A DNA stretch of 20,028 nt, taken from IMG/VR virus record IMGVR_UViG_3300020473_000169, positions 1 to 20,028 of that record; one strand, 5' to 3'. The notes below the pieces were generated by a model that was given only the letters and a program-made list of their open reading frames with translations, searched no databases and was not told where the DNA came from. Source of the DNA: a virus. Positions 2,839 to 15,346 of the stretch are shown piece after piece (within the stretch, counting starts at the first letter, position 1; each line of letters opens with the position of its first letter). The position numbers and the translations under genes were made by a program.

Positions 2839-3318
2839 ATGAAAACAACATTTAATGAAATAATAGAAGTGGTTTTAGAACACGAAGGTGGTTATGTAAA
2901 TGATCCAGACGACGCTGGAGGTGAAACCAATTTTGGTATCGCTAAAAGATGGTATCCGGATGTTGATATAAAAAATCTCACAAAAGAACAGGCTAAAAAA
3001 ATATATCATCAAGATTATTGGAGACCTGGTAAATGTGATGAAGTTCCCCCACAATTAAGACATATTTATTTTGATATGTGTGTTAATTTTGGAAGAAGAG
3101 GAGCTGTTAAGGTTTTACAACAGGCTGCTAATTCTAAATTAAGAAATAAAATAGAAGTAGATGGAGGAATAGGTCCAGCTACATTAAAAGCTATACAAAA
3201 TGTCAGTTTAGACAGAGTAAGGGCTTATAGAGTTTTAAGATTCGCAAACATAGTTATAGACAAACCTAAACAAGAGAAATTTTGGGTAGGTTGGTTTAGA
3301 AGAGCAACGGAGGTATAA
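2839..3318 (+). CDS. GH108-type N-acetylmuramidase (phage lysozyme)
   Basis: This enzyme should cleave peptidoglycan glycan strands. Its 159 residues fit a GH108 catalytic domain followed by a short peptidoglycan-binding domain. Glu16 in the EHEGGYVNDPDDAGGETNFG motif is the expected catalytic acid; DYW (59-61) and YFDMCVNFGRRGAVKVLQ (77-94) continue the fold, and VDGGIGPATLKAI (107-119) is typical of the C-terminal domain. There is no signal peptide or membrane segment, so it would need a holin or delivery on the virion. The start is fixed by homology, since the family begins just before EGGY, yet no Shine-Dalgarno sequence precedes it. The chaperone gene follows after one base. It could be the lysis endolysin or a tail-associated lysozyme; the hub protein here shows no lysozyme domain, which leans to the latter without proving it. 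Confidence 0.9.
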   Translation: MKTTFNEIIEVVLEHEGGYVNDPDDAGGETNFGIAKRWYPDVDIKNLTKEQAKKIYHQDYWRPGKCDEVPPQLRHIYFDMCVNFGRRGAVKVLQQAANSKLRNKIEVDGGIGPATLKAIQNVSLDRVRAYRVLRFANIVIDKPKQEKFWVGWFRRATEV

Positions 3319-3319
3319 A

Positions 3320-4087
3320 ATGGCAGAACAAAAACAAAAACAAAAGTTTCCAAGTGAAGTTATAGATTTACCAAGTGAAGGCAAAGTTTATCCAAAAGAT
3401 TCACCACTATCAGGTGGTAAAATAGAATTAAAATATATGACAGCAAGGGAAGAAGATATTCTTACATCACAAAATCTTATTAAAAAAGGTGTCGTAATCG
3501 ATAAATTATTAGATTCACTTATTCTTACAGAAGGAATAAAATGTGATGATTTAATATTAGGTGATAAAAATGCTGTTATGGTTGCTGCTAGAGTTTTAGC
3601 ATATGGTGCAGATTATAATTGTATGGTTACAAATCCAAATAATAATGAATCATTTGAAACAACCATTAATCTTACGGATTGTCCATTTAGAAAATTACCA
3701 GAAGATATTTCTTCAAATTCATTTTCACTTGAATTACCACTTTCAAAGAAAAAAGTTACTTTTAAATTGTTAACGGGTATAGAAGAAAAAGCAATAGAAC
3801 AAGATTTAAAAGCTTCTAAAAAAGTAGGATCTGATATTTCACCTGAATTGACAACAAGATTAAGACATACTATTACATCAGTTGATGGTGATAATTCACA
3901 ATCTACAATAAATAATTTTGTTCAAAATTTATTGGCTAGAGATTCATTATTTTTAAGAAGTGAAATTAAAAAAATGACACCTGATATTGAACTTAAACAG
4001 GAAGTAGAAATAGAAGGAGAGACGGTCGAGGTAGCGATACCAATGACCGTAAACTTTTTTTGGCCTGACTCCGAAGCATCGCTCTGA
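3320..4087 (+). CDS. gp26/gp51-type baseplate-hub or tail assembly chaperone, zero-frame product
   Basis: A 255-residue protein resembling the T4-like family annotated as baseplate hub subunit (T4 gp26/gp51 type). The conserved start includes IDLPSEGKVYPKDSPLSGG and IELKYMTAREEDILTSQN, followed by DKLLDSLIL. A good ribosome binding site (GGAGG) stands before the ATG at 3320, one base after the lysozyme stop. Its place between tube and tape measure is that of the tail assembly chaperone in other long-tailed phages, where a frameshift makes a longer form. Here the zero frame ends in FFWPDSEASL, while the open frame downstream is in +1. The C-terminal acidic strand region (about 222-243) sits in unusually GC-rich DNA. 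Whether it is a virion hub subunit or a transient chaperone cannot be decided here. Confidence 0.8.
   Translation: MAEQKQKQKFPSEVIDLPSEGKVYPKDSPLSGGKIELKYMTAREEDILTSQNLIKKGVVIDKLLDSLILTEGIKCDDLILGDKNAVMVAARVLAYGADYNCMVTNPNNNESFETTINLTDCPFRKLPEDISSNSFSLELPLSKKKVTFKLLTGIEEKAIEQDLKASKKVGSDISPELTTRLRHTITSVDGDNSQSTINNFVQNLLARDSLFLRSEIKKMTPDIELKQEVEIEGETVEVAIPMTVNFFWPDSEASL
4022..4050 (+). other. Predicted RNA stem-loop just upstream of the frameshift site
   Basis: ACGGTC (4022-4027) pairs with GACCGT (4045-4050). Inside, GGTA (4030-4033) pairs with TACC (4038-4041) around the GNRA-type loop GCGA (4034-4037). The stem ends four bases before the run of seven T at 4055. AGCGAT (4033-4038) is also complementary to ATCGCT at 4078-4083, allowing an alternative long-range pairing across the slippery site. 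No folding energy was calculated. Confidence 0.5.
4054..4063 (+). other. Putative +1 (or -2) translational frameshift site
   Basis: The zero frame reads AAC TTT TTT TGG. A tRNA-Phe on the second TTT (4058-4060) can move one base forward onto TTT (4059-4061) with perfect re-pairing, after which GGC (4062) is read. A -2 slip gives the same frame with one extra Phe. A -1 slip meets TGA at 4066 and is useless. Phage Mu (-2) and SPP1 (+1) chaperone genes are known precedents for non--1 shifts. An indel error in the T run is the main alternative. Confidence 0.6.
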
Positions 4088-4298
4088 TTTACATGACCAA
4101 ATATTCCAATTAATATATTTCGGTGAAGGTGGATTTACACATTCCGATGTGTATACTATGCCTACATATTTAAGAAATTTTTACTATAAAAAACTTTTAG
4201 ATGTAAAAGATACAGAAAAAAGACAATTAGAAAAACAAGAACAAAAAAATAGTAAATTATCCAAACCATCTTTTAAAAATTCAAATTTCAAACGATAA
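4062..4298 (+). CDS. Frameshift-encoded C-terminal extension of the chaperone (78 residues)
   Basis: This open frame has no plausible start codon of its own: it is open only from 4053, and its first ATG is at 4158, inside what looks like a conserved block. It translates as a compact region with LHDQIFQLIYFGEGGFTHSD and VYTMPTYLRNFYYKKLLDVK, then a basic, Gln/Lys-rich tail ending in FKR. The zero-frame stop at 4087 lies inside it. Joined to residue 247 of the upstream gene it would give a 325-residue protein. This layout (chaperone, shifted extension, tape measure) is the G/GT or E/E+E' arrangement of lambda and P2. Known chaperone extensions bind the tape measure. That the block is protein-coding is judged from its composition and motif-like pattern; the frameshift itself is inference. 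Confidence 0.65.
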   Translation, partial: GLTPKHRSDLHDQIFQLIYFGEGGFTHSDVYTMPTYLRNFYYKKLLDVKDTEKRQLEKQEQKNSKLSKPSFKNSNFKR

Positions 4299-4649: not shown

Positions 4650-6644
4650 ATGGCTAAAGAAAGAAACTATGTAAAAGATTTAGATGCTGTAAAACTGTTA
4701 AATCATGAACTTAAAGAGTCAGCTAAAACATTACGCAAGTTAGATGGAACTGCTGAAGATTTAGGTAAATCTGTTCTTGGCATAGCTAAAGGTCTTGGAA
4801 AAAGTAGAAAAGAAACCGAAGAAAATGTAAATTTAGCAAAACAACAAGCAAATCTTGGTCAAAAAATGGTAAAGTTTCTCAAAGCAGAAGAGAAAGGTGG
4901 AAAAATGGGTTTAATGTTTGCTAAAGCAAGATTGAAACTAGCATTCGCTCAGGCTGATAAAAATGATGATATTACTAAAGAATTAAAAACTCAATATAAT
5001 CTTCATAGGACAACTGTAAAAATAGAAAAACATCGTAAGCAGCTTCAAGAACGAAAGAAAGATTTAGCAAAAGCCACCTCGTCTGCATTTGGTGAAATGG
5101 GCTCAATACTAACATCAGCTGTATCTAATCCACTCACTTTTATAATCACATTGATGATGAGATACAATGCTATAACTCAAAGAATTGGTGATAGTTTCGG
5201 TGCTATAGGAATGCATCAACATAAACAGGATTTAACTGAAATTCAAGCTAAAGCTGAAGAATTTGGATTGTCTATGGAAGTTGGAGTAGAGTCAGTTATA
5301 GCTCTGGGTGATGCATTTGGGTATGGAACTCAAAAAGCTACAGAACTTGCTGATGATGTTTTAAATATTCAAAAATCTTTAGGTCTTAGTAATGATGTAT
5401 CTGCAAATCTTGTAGGATATTTTTCAGAAATGACTGGAAAAAGTGGACAACAAACTCAAGAATTATTAAAACAAACAGCAGCATTAGCTGATGCAAATAA
5501 TGTTGCACCAAAAGCAGTTATGGAAGATATAGCTAATAGTACTGAAGCTTTTGCAAAATTTGCAAATGGTAGTGCTGAGGGTTTATTAAGAGCTGCGATA
5601 CAAGCAAGAAAACTTGGAATAAGTTTAGATAAAGTAGCTGGTAGTGCAGAAGGTATGTTAGATTTTCAAACATCATTAAATGCTGAAGTTGAAGCTTCAG
5701 TTATGTTAGGAAGAAATATAAATTTACAAAAAGCTAGAGAGTTGGCATTGACTGGTGATTTAGAAGGATTTCAAAAAGAACTTATGAACGCTATTGGAGA
5801 TGAAACTGAATATAATAAGTTAAATATTCTTCAAAAAAACTCACTCGCTCGAGCTCTTAATTTATCTGTTGCTGATATGGATAAAATGGTTAGAAAGGAG
5901 AAAGAAGCTGTAACACTTGCAGGAGTTATGGCAAAAACAGATATATCACATATAATGCCTAAAGATGCGATGACTGATATGGCTCAGAGAATGGCTGAAT
6001 TTCAAGTTCAACTTACTAAAGTAGCTGTTGAAATCGGACCTATGTTGTTAGATTTATTTGCAGGAGAAAATGGTTTAGCTAAACATTTAATAACAATAGT
6101 TGCAGCTGTTGCAGAATTTATCGTAGGTCTTAATAACTCAATAGGAATTGTTCCACTTTTAATTGGATATATGGCAACATTAGCGGGAAAATCAATAGGT
6201 GTTTTAGTAGCTGCAGCTGGAACTGCTTATGTTAAGGGAGCTTCTACACCACCAAGTCCTGTAACTTTAGCTCTTTTAGCTGCCGCACCAGTTGCAATTG
6301 CAGCTATAGTTGGGGGTATTACAACATTAATATCTAGTATGTCAATGGCTGGTGATGCATTTGTTGGTAGGGGTAGAGGACCAATGATATCTCCGAGAGA
6401 AGGGGGACTTATTCAAGGAACTGTAAATGATGAAGTATTGATGGCTCCAAATATAGGAGGATTGTTCAATGCGACACAAGGTGGTGGTAGTGGAAATCAA
6501 CAACAATATATGGAACAAGTTAAAACAAATCAAAGATTAGGTCAACTAATAGCGAGTATGGATTCTTACTTTGGAACTGGTGGTACTCAATCCAGAGCAT
6601 TAAAAAGAATTTCTGAGGTGGAAGCTGATAAAGGATTTTTATAA
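4650..6644 (+). CDS. Tail tape measure protein
   Basis: This protein should set tail length and travel in the tube lumen. At 664 residues it is somewhat longer than T4 gp29 (590). Residues 1-145 are charged and helical, consistent with coiled coil. A hydrophobic segment lies at about 153-170 (TSAVSNPLTFIITLMM), a helical Ala/Leu-rich middle at 190-420, and a long hydrophobic Ala/Gly/Ile stretch at about 477-565, as in many tape measures. The C-terminus is Gly-rich, then amphipathic, ending in EADKGFL. Its place after the chaperone pair and before the cap, LysM and hub genes supports the call. With the usual rule of about 0.15 nm per residue the tail would be near 100 nm. Identification rests on architecture and position more than on catalytic-type motifs. 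Confidence 0.85.
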   Translation: MAKERNYVKDLDAVKLLNHELKESAKTLRKLDGTAEDLGKSVLGIAKGLGKSRKETEENVNLAKQQANLGQKMVKFLKAEEKGGKMGLMFAKARLKLAFAQADKNDDITKELKTQYNLHRTTVKIEKHRKQLQERKKDLAKATSSAFGEMGSILTSAVSNPLTFIITLMMRYNAITQRIGDSFGAIGMHQHKQDLTEIQAKAEEFGLSMEVGVESVIALGDAFGYGTQKATELADDVLNIQKSLGLSNDVSANLVGYFSEMTGKSGQQTQELLKQTAALADANNVAPKAVMEDIANSTEAFAKFANGSAEGLLRAAIQARKLGISLDKVAGSAEGMLDFQTSLNAEVEASVMLGRNINLQKARELALTGDLEGFQKELMNAIGDETEYNKLNILQKNSLARALNLSVADMDKMVRKEKEAVTLAGVMAKTDISHIMPKDAMTDMAQRMAEFQVQLTKVAVEIGPMLLDLFAGENGLAKHLITIVAAVAEFIVGLNNSIGIVPLLIGYMATLAGKSIGVLVAAAGTAYVKGASTPPSPVTLALLAAAPVAIAAIVGGITTLISSMSMAGDAFVGRGRGPMISPREGGLIQGTVNDEVLMAPNIGGLFNATQGGGSGNQQQYMEQVKTNQRLGQLIASMDSYFGTGGTQSRALKRISEVEADKGFL

Positions 6645-9002: not shown

Positions 9003-9269
9003 ATGGCAAGATATGAAAATACAAAAACTTCAAAAAAAAATAAAAATAAATATTATATGACTTCAATATATCCAGAAGTTCCTGAAAGTGATAATGATAT
9101 GTATTATATATCACAAGAAGGTGATAGGTGTGACAACTTAGCATTTAGATTTTATGGTGATTCAACTTTATGGTGGTTTATTGCACAAACAAATAAATTA
9201 AATTCAATGAATATAGAATCTGGCGTATCATTGAGAATACCGGCAGATATACCAACAGAGGTTTCTTAA
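9003..9269 (+). CDS. LysM-like small baseplate protein (tail protein X / gp53 LysM type)
   Basis: An 88-residue protein that is mostly one LysM-like fold: YYISQEGDRCDNLAFRFYGD (34-53), STLWWFIAQTNKLN, then SGVSLRIPAD. This is the pattern of P2 gpX-type tail proteins and of the LysM part of T4 gp53, which act as glue in the baseplate around the hub instead of binding cell wall. It lies between the tube-cap gene and the hub gene, exactly where X-type proteins stand in contractile tails. The stop overlaps the next start by one base (TAATG), so translation is probably coupled. The basic N-terminal tail (KTSKKNKNK) is a small extension. Confidence 0.85.
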   Translation: MARYENTKTSKKNKNKYYMTSIYPEVPESDNDMYYISQEGDRCDNLAFRFYGDSTLWWFIAQTNKLNSMNIESGVSLRIPADIPTEVS

Positions 9270-12200
9270 TGAATATAAATGCAAGAGTATTCGGTTCTCC
9301 TATTCCTAAAAAAGTTAAAAATAAGTTAGAAGCTAGACAAGAAGCTGCATCAAGAACTATAAAACCAAATGAAACTTTATACACTCGTGGAAGAGGTAAT
9401 GTGATGGTAAATCAGGGAACTACTTATGGTGATCTTCTTAACAATCAATTTGGGGGTGAAGGTGATTTATCATCAAGAACTCCTTTTGTAAGAATGTGGA
9501 CAGCAGTTCAGTTAAGAGAAAAAATAGATTATAAAGATGATCAAAAAACTTGGATGAACATAGACTGGCAAGAACCTTTAGATACTTATGAAGAAGCTGC
9601 ACGACTAGCTAAAAAATATAATGGGGGGATAGATAATTTAGATAACATAGGTGAACCTGATCCAGAAGTTGGATATCTTCTTCCAAGAACTTTTGTTCAA
9701 TATGATGATAAAACTAAAAAATATTATCTAAGACAAGAGAAACCAACAAGTCAAGATGTAGAAGGATTTGGTAAAGCAATTTATACTCTTACTACTAATA
9801 ATATACCAACACATGCAGGAGTTAATGCAAGTGGTTATGATAAATCAACTTCAATGAGTTATAATGAATGGGTTCAGGACGGAAGGCTTATAGCGGAGGG
9901 TGGTGAGATTGGGCAGGATGAAGCTTTTGAAGTATCACAAGGAAAATTTGGCAGCCAATGGCAGTCAAAAGCTTTTGAAGGTAGATGGGAAAGAGAGGGA
10001 GATACTGAAGGATATCAGAGGTATTTGAAAAATCAACAGTCTGCATATGATAAGGCTTTTCCACGAGAACATGGTGTTGAAAACGATCATAATAAATTTA
10101 TGAAACCACCAGCTGGAATAAAATCTATCAATATTAGTACAGAAGGTTCATTGGGTGTTATAAAAAAAACAACAGTAAATTTTATTGTTCATAATTTTGC
10201 TGATTTTGAAGAAATTTATATGAAATATTTTATGAGGCCAGGAGCTCAAGTTTTTGTTGATTATGGTTGGAGTAATGTACCTCTTTATAGTCCTGAAAAA
10301 ATAATGGATTTGGGTCCTGTTGGAGAATATCAATTACAAAAAATATTATTTGATTCAGAAAAAGGAATTATTCCAAAATATCAGGGTGATTTAGATACTT
10401 TAATAGGAATTGTTACTGACTATGAGTCAAGAATATTACAAGATGGTAGTGTTGAATGTAGTGTAACCATTACTTCAAAAAATATGGCTTTACTTGGAGT
10501 TGATGTAGAAGAAAAAACATCTAAAAGGATAAATTTTTTAATAGATTATACAATACAATATGAGGGATTATTTTTAAATAGTAGTCCAAATGAAAGAAAA
10601 ACCTTAGCATTTAGTATACCAAATGCAAATTCCTCAACAGTTGATATAAGGGGTTTTAAAAATGCAATAAAAAATCTTGCAGAAAAAAGTTTTGGTACTG
10701 AGTTATTGACACCTGGTGGTTATGTACAACTGTCTACTGGAATTTATGTAAATACAAAACATGATAAACAATATATAACATGGGGTTTACTTGAAGATAA
10801 ACTTTTTAATAGTGAATTTGGATTTGGGTCAGATTTAAAAAATCTAGTAGGTGTTTCAGTATCTAACAAAGCGGGTTTCGAATCAACACTCGATTCAAGT
10901 GAAACATATGTTAGGTGGGATGAAAAATTAGGAAAAAGACAAACATGGATGTCTGTAGCTGATGAAAAACCTTGCAACTGGCTTTATCCAGAAAATTGGG
11001 GTAATGTAGGAAAAGGAACATATGAAATTAGTGGATCTTTTACTAAAGGTGTACAGGATATAGACACAAGAAATGTTAGAACTTATAGTAATAGACTTGC
11101 GAAAAGACCTGATTTTGATTTTTTAATAAAAGAAGCAATTGAAAATGAAACAACTCAACCTACAACTCCACATGGAGAATATATAAGTGAAGATGAAATT
11201 AAACAAAGACTTGGTCCAGAATATTGGAGTTTTTCACATTATGGTGCTAATCCAGATTACACACCACCAACTCTTGACGATATAACAGAATATACTTGGG
11301 AAGAATTAGAAGAACATTTTTCAGAAGTTCCTAACATTGAACCGGATGGAGAACCTGTTAATTTACTTCAAATGATGAATAATCAGTTTTTAGCTATTAG
11401 AAATCAAACAATAGAAGAAGCTACTGGACTTTCAGAAAAAGAATTTAACAATTTAAAAAGAGCTACTTCACCACCACTCGGAACTGTTGGTGCTGATGGC
11501 CAATATGATCATCATCAACAATTTGAAGTTAATTTAGCAGCTAATCCTGGAGAACAGGGATATCCTGCGTTGGGAATGTGGGCTTCCGATTACACATTAG
11601 GTTATCAAACACATCAATCTGAATATGGATCCTCACAGGGATTTGCAAACACTGATATGCCTGAAGAATATTGGTGGATAGATGCATTAGACACTTCTAG
11701 ATTGGGAAGTTTAGACTTAACAAAAAAAAGATTTTGGTGGTATTTTTATGCACCAACCACTGCTTGGCTTACTATCGGAACTTCTAAAAAAACTTATGAA
11801 TCTTTCAATCCGCGAAATGAACGAAGGGTGTTCCCTACAAGAGGTGGAGGGATTCCTGCTTATATGTATGAATCAAATCCACACTTTGGGAATCCAGCAC
11901 TTGCTCATTTGGAGCCAGGTGAATCACTTGAATATTATGAAGTTGAATCAGCTGATCAATTCAGAGAAGCATTAAGACATGACTCTTTTAGAGAATTTTG
12001 GACTTCACCTTCATCATGGAGAGTCGAGGGGGCAACTGGTATGGGAATTGGTACTGGAGATGATTATGAACTCCTCCCAAATGCTGAGCAAATAACTCTT
12101 AAAAAAAGAAGAATGTTGGATTTTTTAGAAATAATTGGTATTGAACCATATCTCTCTCTTATAGAGACATTTCCAGGTAAATATAAGTATGAACAAGTTG

Positions 12201-15200
12201 ATACTAGTGCTAAACCAACTGTCACCGATGCAGCAATCACAATTCAAAATCCTATAGACTGGACAGCTGTTGATAAATATCATTCAAGAATACCTCTTAG
12301 AGAAATTTTTATTGATGTTGAGATTGTTAAAAAAGCTTTTGAATCCACTGATGAGGGTACTACAACAAAAGAGGCTATAGAATATATTTTAGAAAAAATG
12401 AATGAAGATTCTGTAGGAATTTGGGATTTAAAATTAGTTTCTGCTCCAGGAGATGATACAAGTTTATCAGTAGTAGATTATAATTTTCTGGGAAAGGATA
12501 AAAATAAGGGAAACACAACTCAACAATCTACTTATGATGAACTTTTTGTGTTCGATATTACAGGAAGAAAGTCAATTGTAATAAATTACGATTTATCATT
12601 AAATATTCCAAGTGGAAATATAGCAACAATGTTAGCTATTCAAGGTGCATCAGAAACTAATCAATCTTTTAATTTAAATGCGGATATTGATTCACATTTA
12701 GCTTTTTCAAGTGTAACGGGTAATGATAATGAGCGTTATATTCAATATTTACCTAATTTACATGGATATAGAAATTTTAGAGGAAACACAGATGATATAG
12801 TTGGACTTCAGGGTTTTGATGATATGAAACATTTTAGTAAGCAGACTATTAGAGAAACAAATGTAGCTAATAATAATTATGATCTTGTTAATGTTTCACA
12901 ACACACCGACGCGCAAGGTTACATTTATGATACAAGTACAAATGAAAAACAATCAGACAAAGCTACTATAGATGCACAAGTAAAAGTTAATGAACAGTTG
13001 CAGGCTGATCAAAGAGACAGATTAAAAGAACTTGGTTTTATAGTTACAAGTACATTTAAAGAATATTTTGATACATTAGCAATGGGGGCATATTTGAATG
13101 ATAAAGATGGTAGAGCAGCACCTCTTCATTTTTTAAAATTAACTTTAAAAGTATATGGTATATCATCGTTACAACCAGGTGATATATTCAGAGTTAATTA
13201 TTTACCAAAAATTTATTTAAATAATGTTTATTTTCAAGTCATTAAAGTTACTCATGATGTAGATCCAACTGGTTGGTATACAACTTTAGAAACGGTGTTT
13301 AGAGTTAGACCTGACAAAAAAAATGAAGCAAATATAGCTAAAACCGCAACCGACTCCAATGTTGTAATGGATTCGACAATGTTAGCTTCTATGCAAAATT
13401 TAAGTGAAGCTTCAAGAGTAGGTATGGATGTTCCTATGTTTAAAACCGACTGGTATTGGGGTGCCAACACTTCCGCCACATGGAATTATTATACAGGCTA
13501 TCAAGCTGGTAGTATAAAAGATCAACCATATGGTTCTAATCAAAAAACTAAAGAAAGACAAAAAGAATATAGAATAGATAGAGCTACAGAACTTAATTTT
13601 AAAAAATTAGCACCCTTTATTACAAAATTAAGACCTTATATTAATGACATAGTAACTGACCCAAATAGTAGAATTTCACATGGATTTGAATTTGAAGTTT
13701 GGAATACAATGACAAATCAAGATGTTGGATTACATGTTAAGACTCAAGCAGGTGGTGTGCACACCACTCTCAAAGGCTCTACCAGTGCCACTAATGCATC
13801 TGCATATCGAGCTCTTGGTGAACTTTTCCCACCTAAGGATCCTCACCCTATGGCTCTTCCAGGTACATTAAATGTTTATCCTATGATGAGTATGTGCGCT
13901 TCAGTATATATGGATGTGGATTATAATATGAAAAGTAAGGATGGACGAGGTAAAAATAACCAAGAAATAGCTAATGGAAGTATTGCTCAAAGACTTGGTT
14001 ATTTTGATAAAAAAGGAGCTGCTCATTTTAATAGTGATGTAACATCATATAAGATTCACACTAATTTATGTAGAAGGAATAGAAACAAACCACAATCTGG
14101 TGATATGAAAATATCTATTCCAGCAAATTCATCAGGATTTACAACTGCTAATTTTTGTGATTATGGGGTAATGCCCACCATTCTTAATTCTATTGCTGGT
14201 ACTAAAAAAGAAGTTTGTACAGGAACTAATAATAATGGTTTGGTAACAATGAAATTAGATAGAGTTGATGATAACGAACTTTTAAGATATAATAGTTGGA
14301 AAGATTATGGAGCTGACGATTATGGTGTAGATGAATATGTTGATAAACAAAGTTTATATTTAGGTTGGACGGGTTATAGACTTCAATATGAAGGATATAG
14401 ATGGAGACATATGCTTGAACCAGGTTATCATTCTCATTTTTGGGAGTATGGTGGAGGATGGGATGATATAGTTACTAATTCTCGGGGTAAACGATACAAA
14501 GATATATTTAATGAACATTTTCCTGTAAGAGATGAGGAGGGGTATCCAAAATCACAATTCGGTGGAAGTTGTTATAATATTGGCTGGGAGCCTGGAGGAT
14601 TTGGTCATCAAACTGATTCAGCATTTCCATATAGTAACATGACTTATGAAAGATTTAATGGAGGTCAAGTAGGTAATTGGACACCTTCATATGCAACGGG
14701 AGATAAGAAAGGTGGGATGGGAGTATATCAAAATTACCATCTTTTAAATGAGATGAAAGGTGTAGGAAGCACTCAGTGGCAAAACACTACCAATTTTCAA
14801 GGTCATGCACCATTGCAATTTAGGAAAGCCATGGCTTGGACTGCTAGAGTGCATGAGAATTTTCATTATTTTCATAAAGGAGAAAAATGGGTAATATTAT
14901 TTAATAAGGCTAAACCTCGTTCTCATTATATGTTTGTTAGAAAAGAACATTTAGAAGCAAATACAAATGGTATATATGATGTATTGTTCTCAACAGATAC
15001 ATCAGCTAAAACTGGAGTTATGATAACAGGATTTACAAACACACATGTGCCTTGGGGTGATAGTTGGACACATGGAATTGGTCCTTGGTGGATTGGTCAG
15101 GATTGGAAAAACAATTTTCAAGATACTCAAAACTTGGAATATGATTCGAGACGCGAAGATAATCCTCACCTGTTCTCCTATATGGGCACTAAGGGTGCAG

Positions 15201-15346
15201 TCGCTGTTAAATGTGCTAATGCATGTGAATATAGCCCAAATGATTGTGCTGATCCAAATAATGTACTTCCACCTGGTAATTCAAACAAAGGTGATGGTTA
15301 CTTTTGTAATGCTTCCACACATGGTTGGAATGCAATAGGTTATTAG
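9269..15346 (+). CDS. Giant baseplate hub-like protein with C-terminal module of unknown function
   Basis: At 2025 residues this is the largest gene here. Residues 1-85 (VFGSPIPKKVKNKLEARQ, SRTPFVRMWTAVQL) and 280-435 (IKSINISTEGSLGVIKKTTV, FADFEEIYMKYFMRPGAQVF, VDYGWSN) look like the gp27/gpD-type hub. Residues about 985-1110 and 1250-1347 resume a hub-like pattern (SSLQPGDIFRVNYLPKIYLN, FQVIKVTHDVDPTGWYTTLE). An insertion-like, Trp/Tyr-rich region lies at about 625-945. From about 1385 to the end the protein changes character: Trp, Tyr, His and Gly are abundant and 9 of its 11 Cys occur there, ending in CX3CX6CX19C. No lysozyme motif or catalytic site was recognised. It overlaps the LysM gene (TAATG), as in P2 X-D. 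It may be a fused hub plus tip or receptor-contact protein; that part is inference. Confidence 0.7.
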   Translation: MNINARVFGSPIPKKVKNKLEARQEAASRTIKPNETLYTRGRGNVMVNQGTTYGDLLNNQFGGEGDLSSRTPFVRMWTAVQLREKIDYKDDQKTWMNIDWQEPLDTYEEAARLAKKYNGGIDNLDNIGEPDPEVGYLLPRTFVQYDDKTKKYYLRQEKPTSQDVEGFGKAIYTLTTNNIPTHAGVNASGYDKSTSMSYNEWVQDGRLIAEGGEIGQDEAFEVSQGKFGSQWQSKAFEGRWEREGDTEGYQRYLKNQQSAYDKAFPREHGVENDHNKFMKPPAGIKSINISTEGSLGVIKKTTVNFIVHNFADFEEIYMKYFMRPGAQVFVDYGWSNVPLYSPEKIMDLGPVGEYQLQKILFDSEKGIIPKYQGDLDTLIGIVTDYESRILQDGSVECSVTITSKNMALLGVDVEEKTSKRINFLIDYTIQYEGLFLNSSPNERKTLAFSIPNANSSTVDIRGFKNAIKNLAEKSFGTELLTPGGYVQLSTGIYVNTKHDKQYITWGLLEDKLFNSEFGFGSDLKNLVGVSVSNKAGFESTLDSSETYVRWDEKLGKRQTWMSVADEKPCNWLYPENWGNVGKGTYEISGSFTKGVQDIDTRNVRTYSNRLAKRPDFDFLIKEAIENETTQPTTPHGEYISEDEIKQRLGPEYWSFSHYGANPDYTPPTLDDITEYTWEELEEHFSEVPNIEPDGEPVNLLQMMNNQFLAIRNQTIEEATGLSEKEFNNLKRATSPPLGTVGADGQYDHHQQFEVNLAANPGEQGYPALGMWASDYTLGYQTHQSEYGSSQGFANTDMPEEYWWIDALDTSRLGSLDLTKKRFWWYFYAPTTAWLTIGTSKKTYESFNPRNERRVFPTRGGGIPAYMYESNPHFGNPALAHLEPGESLEYYEVESADQFREALRHDSFREFWTSPSSWRVEGATGMGIGTGDDYELLPNAEQITLKKRRMLDFLEIIGIEPYLSLIETFPGKYKYEQVDTSAKPTVTDAAITIQNPIDWTAVDKYHSRIPLREIFIDVEIVKKAFESTDEGTTTKEAIEYILEKMNEDSVGIWDLKLVSAPGDDTSLSVVDYNFLGKDKNKGNTTQQSTYDELFVFDITGRKSIVINYDLSLNIPSGNIATMLAIQGASETNQSFNLNADIDSHLAFSSVTGNDNERYIQYLPNLHGYRNFRGNTDDIVGLQGFDDMKHFSKQTIRETNVANNNYDLVNVSQHTDAQGYIYDTSTNEKQSDKATIDAQVKVNEQLQADQRDRLKELGFIVTSTFKEYFDTLAMGAYLNDKDGRAAPLHFLKLTLKVYGISSLQPGDIFRVNYLPKIYLNNVYFQVIKVTHDVDPTGWYTTLETVFRVRPDKKNEANIAKTATDSNVVMDSTMLASMQNLSEASRVGMDVPMFKTDWYWGANTSATWNYYTGYQAGSIKDQPYGSNQKTKERQKEYRIDRATELNFKKLAPFITKLRPYINDIVTDPNSRISHGFEFEVWNTMTNQDVGLHVKTQAGGVHTTLKGSTSATNASAYRALGELFPPKDPHPMALPGTLNVYPMMSMCASVYMDVDYNMKSKDGRGKNNQEIANGSIAQRLGYFDKKGAAHFNSDVTSYKIHTNLCRRNRNKPQSGDMKISIPANSSGFTTANFCDYGVMPTILNSIAGTKKEVCTGTNNNGLVTMKLDRVDDNELLRYNSWKDYGADDYGVDEYVDKQSLYLGWTGYRLQYEGYRWRHMLEPGYHSHFWEYGGGWDDIVTNSRGKRYKDIFNEHFPVRDEEGYPKSQFGGSCYNIGWEPGGFGHQTDSAFPYSNMTYERFNGGQVGNWTPSYATGDKKGGMGVYQNYHLLNEMKGVGSTQWQNTTNFQGHAPLQFRKAMAWTARVHENFHYFHKGEKWVILFNKAKPRSHYMFVRKEHLEANTNGIYDVLFSTDTSAKTGVMITGFTNTHVPWGDSWTHGIGPWWIGQDWKNNFQDTQNLEYDSRREDNPHLFSYMGTKGAVAVKCANACEYSPNDCADPNNVLPPGNSNKGDGYFCNASTHGWNAIGY

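Follow-up and report, generated by a model that had tools for sequence, protein, structure and literature searches.

A probable stem-loop-assisted +1 frameshift in the tail assembly chaperone gene of a marine T4-like phage family

In a family of marine T4-like phages, a single gene seems to yield both a short and a long tail assembly chaperone, and a conserved stem-loop located just 5' of the slip site probably pushes ribosomes to shift. The family was delineated around a stretch of viral DNA of 20,028 nucleotides, referred to here as the window (IMG/VR record IMGVR_UViG_3300020473_000169). On the evidence of sequence, the gene consists of two parts with a +1 offset, coding selection acts on the extension, the slip site is conserved, and a stem-loop precedes it. 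Very probably, the gene gives rise to a protein of 255 residues (TAC-N) and, through a +1 slip at a run of T that is assisted by the stem-loop, to a protein of 325 residues (TAC-NC), with roles like those of the lambda tail chaperones.

Gene layout and conservation of the +1 register

The two parts of the chaperone gene, the elements at the slip site, the upstream tube gene and the 664-residue ORF downstream all lie on the plus strand of the window. The ORF of the short form, a gp26-like tail assembly chaperone, occupies the zero frame at 3320-4087 with its stop codon at 4085-4087. The +1 frame is open from stop to stop over 4053-4298 (81 codons), and the extension (TAC-C, 4062-4298) comprises 78 residues past the shift and a stop codon. 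The slip site TTT_TTT_T is a run of seven T at 4055-4061, over which the zero frame reads AAC TTT TTT TGG CCT GAC; the P-site codon TTT is at 4058-4060 and the zero-frame A-site codon TGG at 4061-4063. The +1 codons after the run are GGC CTG ACT CCG (G L T P), and the resulting fusion joins 247 zero-frame residues to the 78 of the extension. The -1 frame is closed by a TGA at 4066-4068. The initial annotation had proposed a programmed shift at seven T, linking a zero frame ending at 4087 to the +1 frame at 4053-4298, with products of 255 and 325 residues, a blocked -1 frame and no usable start ahead of the conserved block. All of these coordinates hold on re-reading, the computed lengths of the ORF and the fusion agree, and the window has no ATG, GTG or TTG in the +1 frame ahead of that block.

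The chaperone gene sits between the gene of the gp19 tail tube protein upstream (2269-2757; PF06841, phrog_4542) and a large ORF of 664 residues downstream (4650-6644), which, judged by its position, is probably the tape measure protein and for which Pfam and PHROG profile searches gave no family match. The order of tube, chaperone and tape measure is annotated in Flavobacterium phage immuto and Listeria phage LIS04, where the tape measure is the next gene after the chaperone. Both this position and the comparative data below support the analogy with lambda-type tail chaperones that the initial annotation had drawn. Other features of the window are a strong intrinsic-terminator-like site right after the tube gene (2780-2813; 14 pairs followed by a T run), a GH108 endolysin gene between the tail tube and tail chaperone genes (2839-3318) and a single ORF of 2025 residues in the baseplate region (9269-15346), which is very large for that position.

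Relatives were collected in two rounds, the query being the zero-frame protein in one and the extension in the other, and confirmed by tblastn, which resulted in 159 IMG/VR loci from many metagenomes and, together with the window, a set of 160. Because some of these loci overlap or are near-identical, distinct sites were tallied apart (n = 104, isolates included). Both parts are present in 160 of 160 loci, and the offset of the extension is always precisely +1. Nearly all of the 160 loci have TTTTTTTGGCC as the slip, and TTT TTT TGG is found at 94 of the 104 distinct sites. An alignment of homologues had been set beforehand as a check of the proposed frameshift, and homologues carrying both parts in one frame had been named as the result that would speak against it; a single-frame joining of the two parts occurs in none of the 160 loci, and the comparative data support a programmed shift at the T run. 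Conservation of the T run as sole proof of a shift was rejected; by itself it is weak evidence, because TTT accounts for 85% of the Phe codons in these genes. The pN/pS of the extension in the +1 frame is 0.29 for its first part and 0.37 for its core, and ranges from 0.63 to 2.2 in the other two frames, a pattern of substitution by which the extension is evolving as a protein in the +1 frame only.

The +1 layout is also found in the isolates Microcystis phage Mel-JY01 and Rhodothermus phage RM378 (join TTTTTTTGG in each), Flavobacterium phage immuto (join TTTCTTTGG), Bacillus phage SP-15 (join TTTTTTCAC) and Streptococcus phage GXN1 (join TTCTTTCGT), as well as in an uncultured phage of 484 kb (join TTTCTATTC). 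In SP-15, GXN1 and RM378, the most distant of them, the extension is open in +1 and too diverged for certain homology.

Small "hypothetical proteins" are located after the chaperone gene, namely immuto35A_232 (L162, 4851-4961), SP15_046 (L165, 4821-4940) and WWT39326.1 (L163, 4761-4997). They are apparently fragments of the +1 extension and not separate genes, and the extension would account for gene calls that are small or absent downstream of the chaperone in annotated phages such as immuto, SP-15 and Mel-JY01.

The stem-loop 5' of the slip site

The initial annotation did not include the stem-loop at 4022-4050 (ACGGTCG-A-GGTA-GCGA-TACC-AA-TGACCGT), which stops 4 nt short of the T run (3' context AAAC-TTTTTTT) and has its base 7 nt 5' of the P-site codon. 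Its single-strand fold z in the window is -4.7. In a shuffle test of the 42 nt upstream of the slip, in which the protein was kept fixed and the codons were drawn from each gene's own usage, the fold was much more stable than expected, with a z of -3.1 on average over the 104 distinct loci and of -5.0 for the window, as opposed to -0.1 for control windows of the same genes. The mean MFE is -12.6 upstream of the slip versus -3.2 in the control windows, and values at or below -9 kcal/mol are reached in 83 of 104 windows at the slip versus 10 of 728 controls.

Covariation was assessed in an alignment of 49 distinct sequences of the main clade, in which the stem is paired in 94.6% of the cells and changes on both sides were observed 26 times versus 4.0 in shuffles; RNAalifold recovers the same helix unprompted. 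Pair 12-36, which joins two third codon positions, occurs as CG (31), GC (8), UA (4), UG (4) and AU (2), and is broken in none of the 49 sequences. On a tree built from the remainder of the protein, parsimony counts 14 changes on one side of this pair and 12 on the other, yet only 14 joint events.

A second clade, L061-L080, has a longer stem-loop of different build in the same place, and locus L164 has a perfect CGCATCC/GGATGCG stem without a T run. In most loci the last helix has its base 6-8 nt 5' of the P-site codon. In L097-L119, immuto, SP-15 and GXN1, the shuffle test found no significant stem-loop, though the +1 layout is retained. The stem-loop is therefore a clade-level feature, and the system as such does not depend on it. 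A conserved downstream stimulator was considered and rejected, as synonymous shuffles are just as structured as the 60 nt that follow the slip (mean z -0.37). Rfam gave no match at 3900-4200. Just 5' of the stem-loop lies a Shine-Dalgarno-like AAGGAG (4014-4019), a site that is the strongest of its gene in most loci. In the main clade it does not go beyond what the encoded codons give, being mostly explained by Gly and Glu codons. Significance is reached in some lineages, among them L129, L148, L163 and L164, and its contribution as an element is suggestive.

Direction of the shift and alternative explanations

Shifts of +1 and -2 lead to the same frame and were compared by a re-pairing test at the 104 distinct sites. 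Re-pairing of a tRNA-Phe type in the P site is possible after +1 at all 104 sites. After a -2 shift as in phage Mu, which would give a long form of 326 residues with the junction VNFFFGLTPK, seven T permit perfect re-pairing at 100 of them. However, it fails in L142/L144 (TTC TTT TGG), GXN1 (TTC TTT CGT) and LR756508 (TTT CTA TTC), three lineages in which +1 still works, and Mu-type re-pairing thus does not extend across the whole family. Moreover, upstream hairpins stimulate +1 shifts on 70S ribosomes and are expected to oppose backward ones (PMC6321510). The initial annotation had named +1 or -2; the register stands, and +1 is the better reading because of the re-pairing pattern and a 5' hairpin of the kind that favours +1, while a -2 shift is improbable.

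Transcriptional slippage, in which RNA polymerase would omit one U or add two at the T run and the ribosome would read normally, could make use of the seven-T run present at most sites. However, a seven-base run is short for efficient transcriptional slippage, the +1 layout is kept in L142, L162, L164 and L166 without a long homopolymer, and a 5' RNA stem-loop would be unnecessary for it, which makes it very unlikely. We give equally little credence to the view that the stem-loop and the T run form an intrinsic terminator or attenuator and that the extension is expressed as a gene of its own from a non-standard start. The combination of a stem-loop and subsequent T's does look terminator-like, and an ATG, GTG or TTG is present somewhere in the extension frame ahead of the core in 54 of the 104 loci; it is absent, however, in the window and 49 other loci (50 of 104), the +1 overlap is fixed in all loci, and L164 retains the stem-loop without a T run. 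The terminator scan, moreover, reports the site at 2780-2813 and passes over the stem-loop because of the 4-nt gap between the stem and the T run. Finally, homopolymer runs are prone to sequencing and assembly errors, and one truly continuous gene could in principle lie behind the T run. This can be considered excluded for practical purposes, because the same +1 offset is found in 160 of 160 loci and the extension is under coding selection in that frame; the offset is identical across many metagenomes and complete isolate genomes, and the overlapping stops are at conserved positions.

The +1 slip at the T run thus remains the preferred reading for the window family and for the isolates named above, and other arrangements occur among the T4-like phages sampled. 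In LIS04, the extension is in +1 and the slip TTT TTT AGT would fit either a +1 shift one codon earlier or a -2 shift. In Atu_ph07, PA5oct, Kyanoviridae DSL-LC02 and phiAS5 (L187, L188, L189 and L191), the extension has a -1 layout at AT TTT TTC or similar, from which it follows that the shift direction switched within the chaperone family. T4 itself has separate genes. A further arrangement is seen at about position 3802 of LR756511 (L167), a phage of 595 kb, in which an extension-like ORF in the -1 frame starts at an ATG that shares bases with the stop codon of the chaperone (TAATG); stop-start translation may here take the place of frameshifting.

Chaperone identity, known systems and proposed mechanism

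The zero-frame product matches PF12322 (E 3e-8, 34 bits, cut-off 24.5) and phrog_150 (E 3e-13), which are the families of T4 gp26 and gp51. Residues 1-203 of T4 gp51 align with the whole of gp26 (HHalign 97.9%, E 2.9e-12), so that gp51 corresponds to gp26 with an additional C-terminal piece, and T4 gp26/gp51 is a short/long chaperone arrangement built from two genes, which are divergently placed. A direct HHalign comparison of the window chaperone profile with T4 gp26/gp51 was not significant, though the Pfam and PHROG profiles connect them. The extension alone gave no convincing family match in Pfam and PHROG profile searches. For the fusion of locus L147, the phrog_150 match spans 8 to 280 and takes in the gp51-type C terminus; that of the window matches only up to 235 without alignment to this terminus, so that the extension is likely, if not proven, to be homologous to the C-terminal piece of gp51.

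For structure modelling with AlphaFold2, the chaperone and the extension were folded as separate chains, which gave a pLDDT of 88 for the chaperone and three helices with a pLDDT of 80.5 for the extension. The chaperone model is similar to other phage "baseplate hub" proteins in BFVD, and Foldseek against the PDB found no significant match; the two best solved-structure matches, YqbN and the HK97 gp13 tail assembly chaperone, are weak (Z 5.2 and 4.8). Because of the gp26/gp51 family matches and the structure-model comparisons, the label "baseplate hub subunit" is probably a misnomer for a tail assembly chaperone. A match to Enterocloster phage CB473P3 (H13) was weak, in a region annotated on the other strand, and was taken as chance.

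Vladimirov, Gautam and Davidson (Virology 566:9-15) reportedly assigned genes 26 and 51 in 2022 and described frameshifting in several T4-like groups. Tail-chaperone frameshifts are a known class, to which T4 was given as an exception in a 2016 review (PMC5009743). The T4-like tail chaperones were identified in 2022 (Vladimirov et al., as cited in PMC10885494 and PMC12846349), and the second of these papers refers to it as the source for -1 frameshift signals of the poly-T type in the TAC-N genes of this phage group. Going by these citations, the statement in the initial annotation that T4-type phages are not usually described as using a frameshift here is outdated. The window family resembles the T4-like chaperones in its short form of the gp26 family and, probably, in its gp51-like long form, and differs from the cited poly-T -1 signals (PMC12846349) in its +1 direction and 5' stem-loop. 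With the gpG/gpGT shift of lambda (Xu, Hendrix and Duda, 2004; reviewed in PMC5009743) it shares a short ORF and an out-of-frame, 3'-overlapping extension; however, lambda shifts by -1, whereas the window has +1 with a 5' stem-loop and a chaperone of the T4 gp26/gp51 family.

The closest parallel for the stem-loop is the yeast gene ABP140, in which a conserved stem-loop 6 nt 5' of the shift site stimulates +1, one codon more spacing abolishes stimulation, and the effect of the stem-loop is confined to sites at which re-pairing is open to the P-site tRNA (Fenton et al., 2025; PMC12661321). According to these authors, stimulatory structures identified earlier were located downstream, and the bacterial support they name comes from the internal Shine-Dalgarno of RF2, artificial hairpins and T4 gene 60 (PMC12661321). 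In T4 gene 60 bypassing, as cited in that paper, mRNA structure behind the ribosome likewise favours forward movement. The bypass, however, spans 50 nt and involves a take-off codon, a landing codon and a signal from the nascent peptide, as opposed to a single-base shift in the window. ABP140 and the window have in common a covarying stem-loop, whose base is 6 and 7 nt 5' of the P-site codon, respectively, and +1 re-pairing in the P site, whereas ABP140 is a eukaryotic cellular gene with the heptamer CUU_AGG_C. The +1 shift of RF2 (prfB) also takes place on a re-pairing P-site codon with a duplex just 5' of the E site, which is an mRNA-rRNA duplex with UGA in the A site, in contrast to the intramolecular stem-loop and TGG of the window. 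To our knowledge, a natural +1 shift stimulated by a 5' stem-loop has been demonstrated in only one gene, that of yeast.

In the proposed mechanism of a stem-loop-assisted +1 slip, most ribosomes would terminate at 4085-4087 and yield TAC-N. In a fraction of them, with Phe-tRNA in the P site on the second TTT and TGG waiting, the stem-loop freshly out behind the decoding site would refold and pull the mRNA by one base, the P-site Phe-tRNA would re-pair one base ahead on the next TTT, and reading would resume at GGC CTG ACT in +1 to give TAC-NC. By analogy with lambda G/GT, the tape measure protein would be coated by numerous copies of the short form, and the long form, in few copies, would recruit tube subunits. 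The shifting of ribosomes, its efficiency and product ratio, and the role in tail assembly are what we infer from the conserved layout, and the pulling of the mRNA is suggested because of the ABP140-like geometry and the perfectly re-pairing UUU_U.

Since the class of chaperone frameshifts is already known, T4-like phages included, what is new here is the +1 direction together with a natural, covarying 5' stem-loop; a search of mostly freely accessible literature found no report of a phage +1 site with such a stem-loop. The window family is likely to present the first natural case in prokaryotes (here in a phage) of a +1 frameshift that is driven by a 5' stem-loop refolding during translation, which would be an intramolecular replacement of the internal Shine-Dalgarno, kept by compensatory silent changes across T4-like chaperones whose arrangement has switched between +1, -1 and separate genes. 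With its silent-site covariation, the stem-loop lends itself to testing, on bacterial ribosomes, the "mRNA pulling" model proposed for +1 shifting (Fenton et al., 2025). Among the T4-like phages, a gp26 chaperone with a probable frameshift of +1 polarity now stands beside related groups that rely on -1 or on two genes, and these arrangements therefore form a natural series for the evolution of shift direction.
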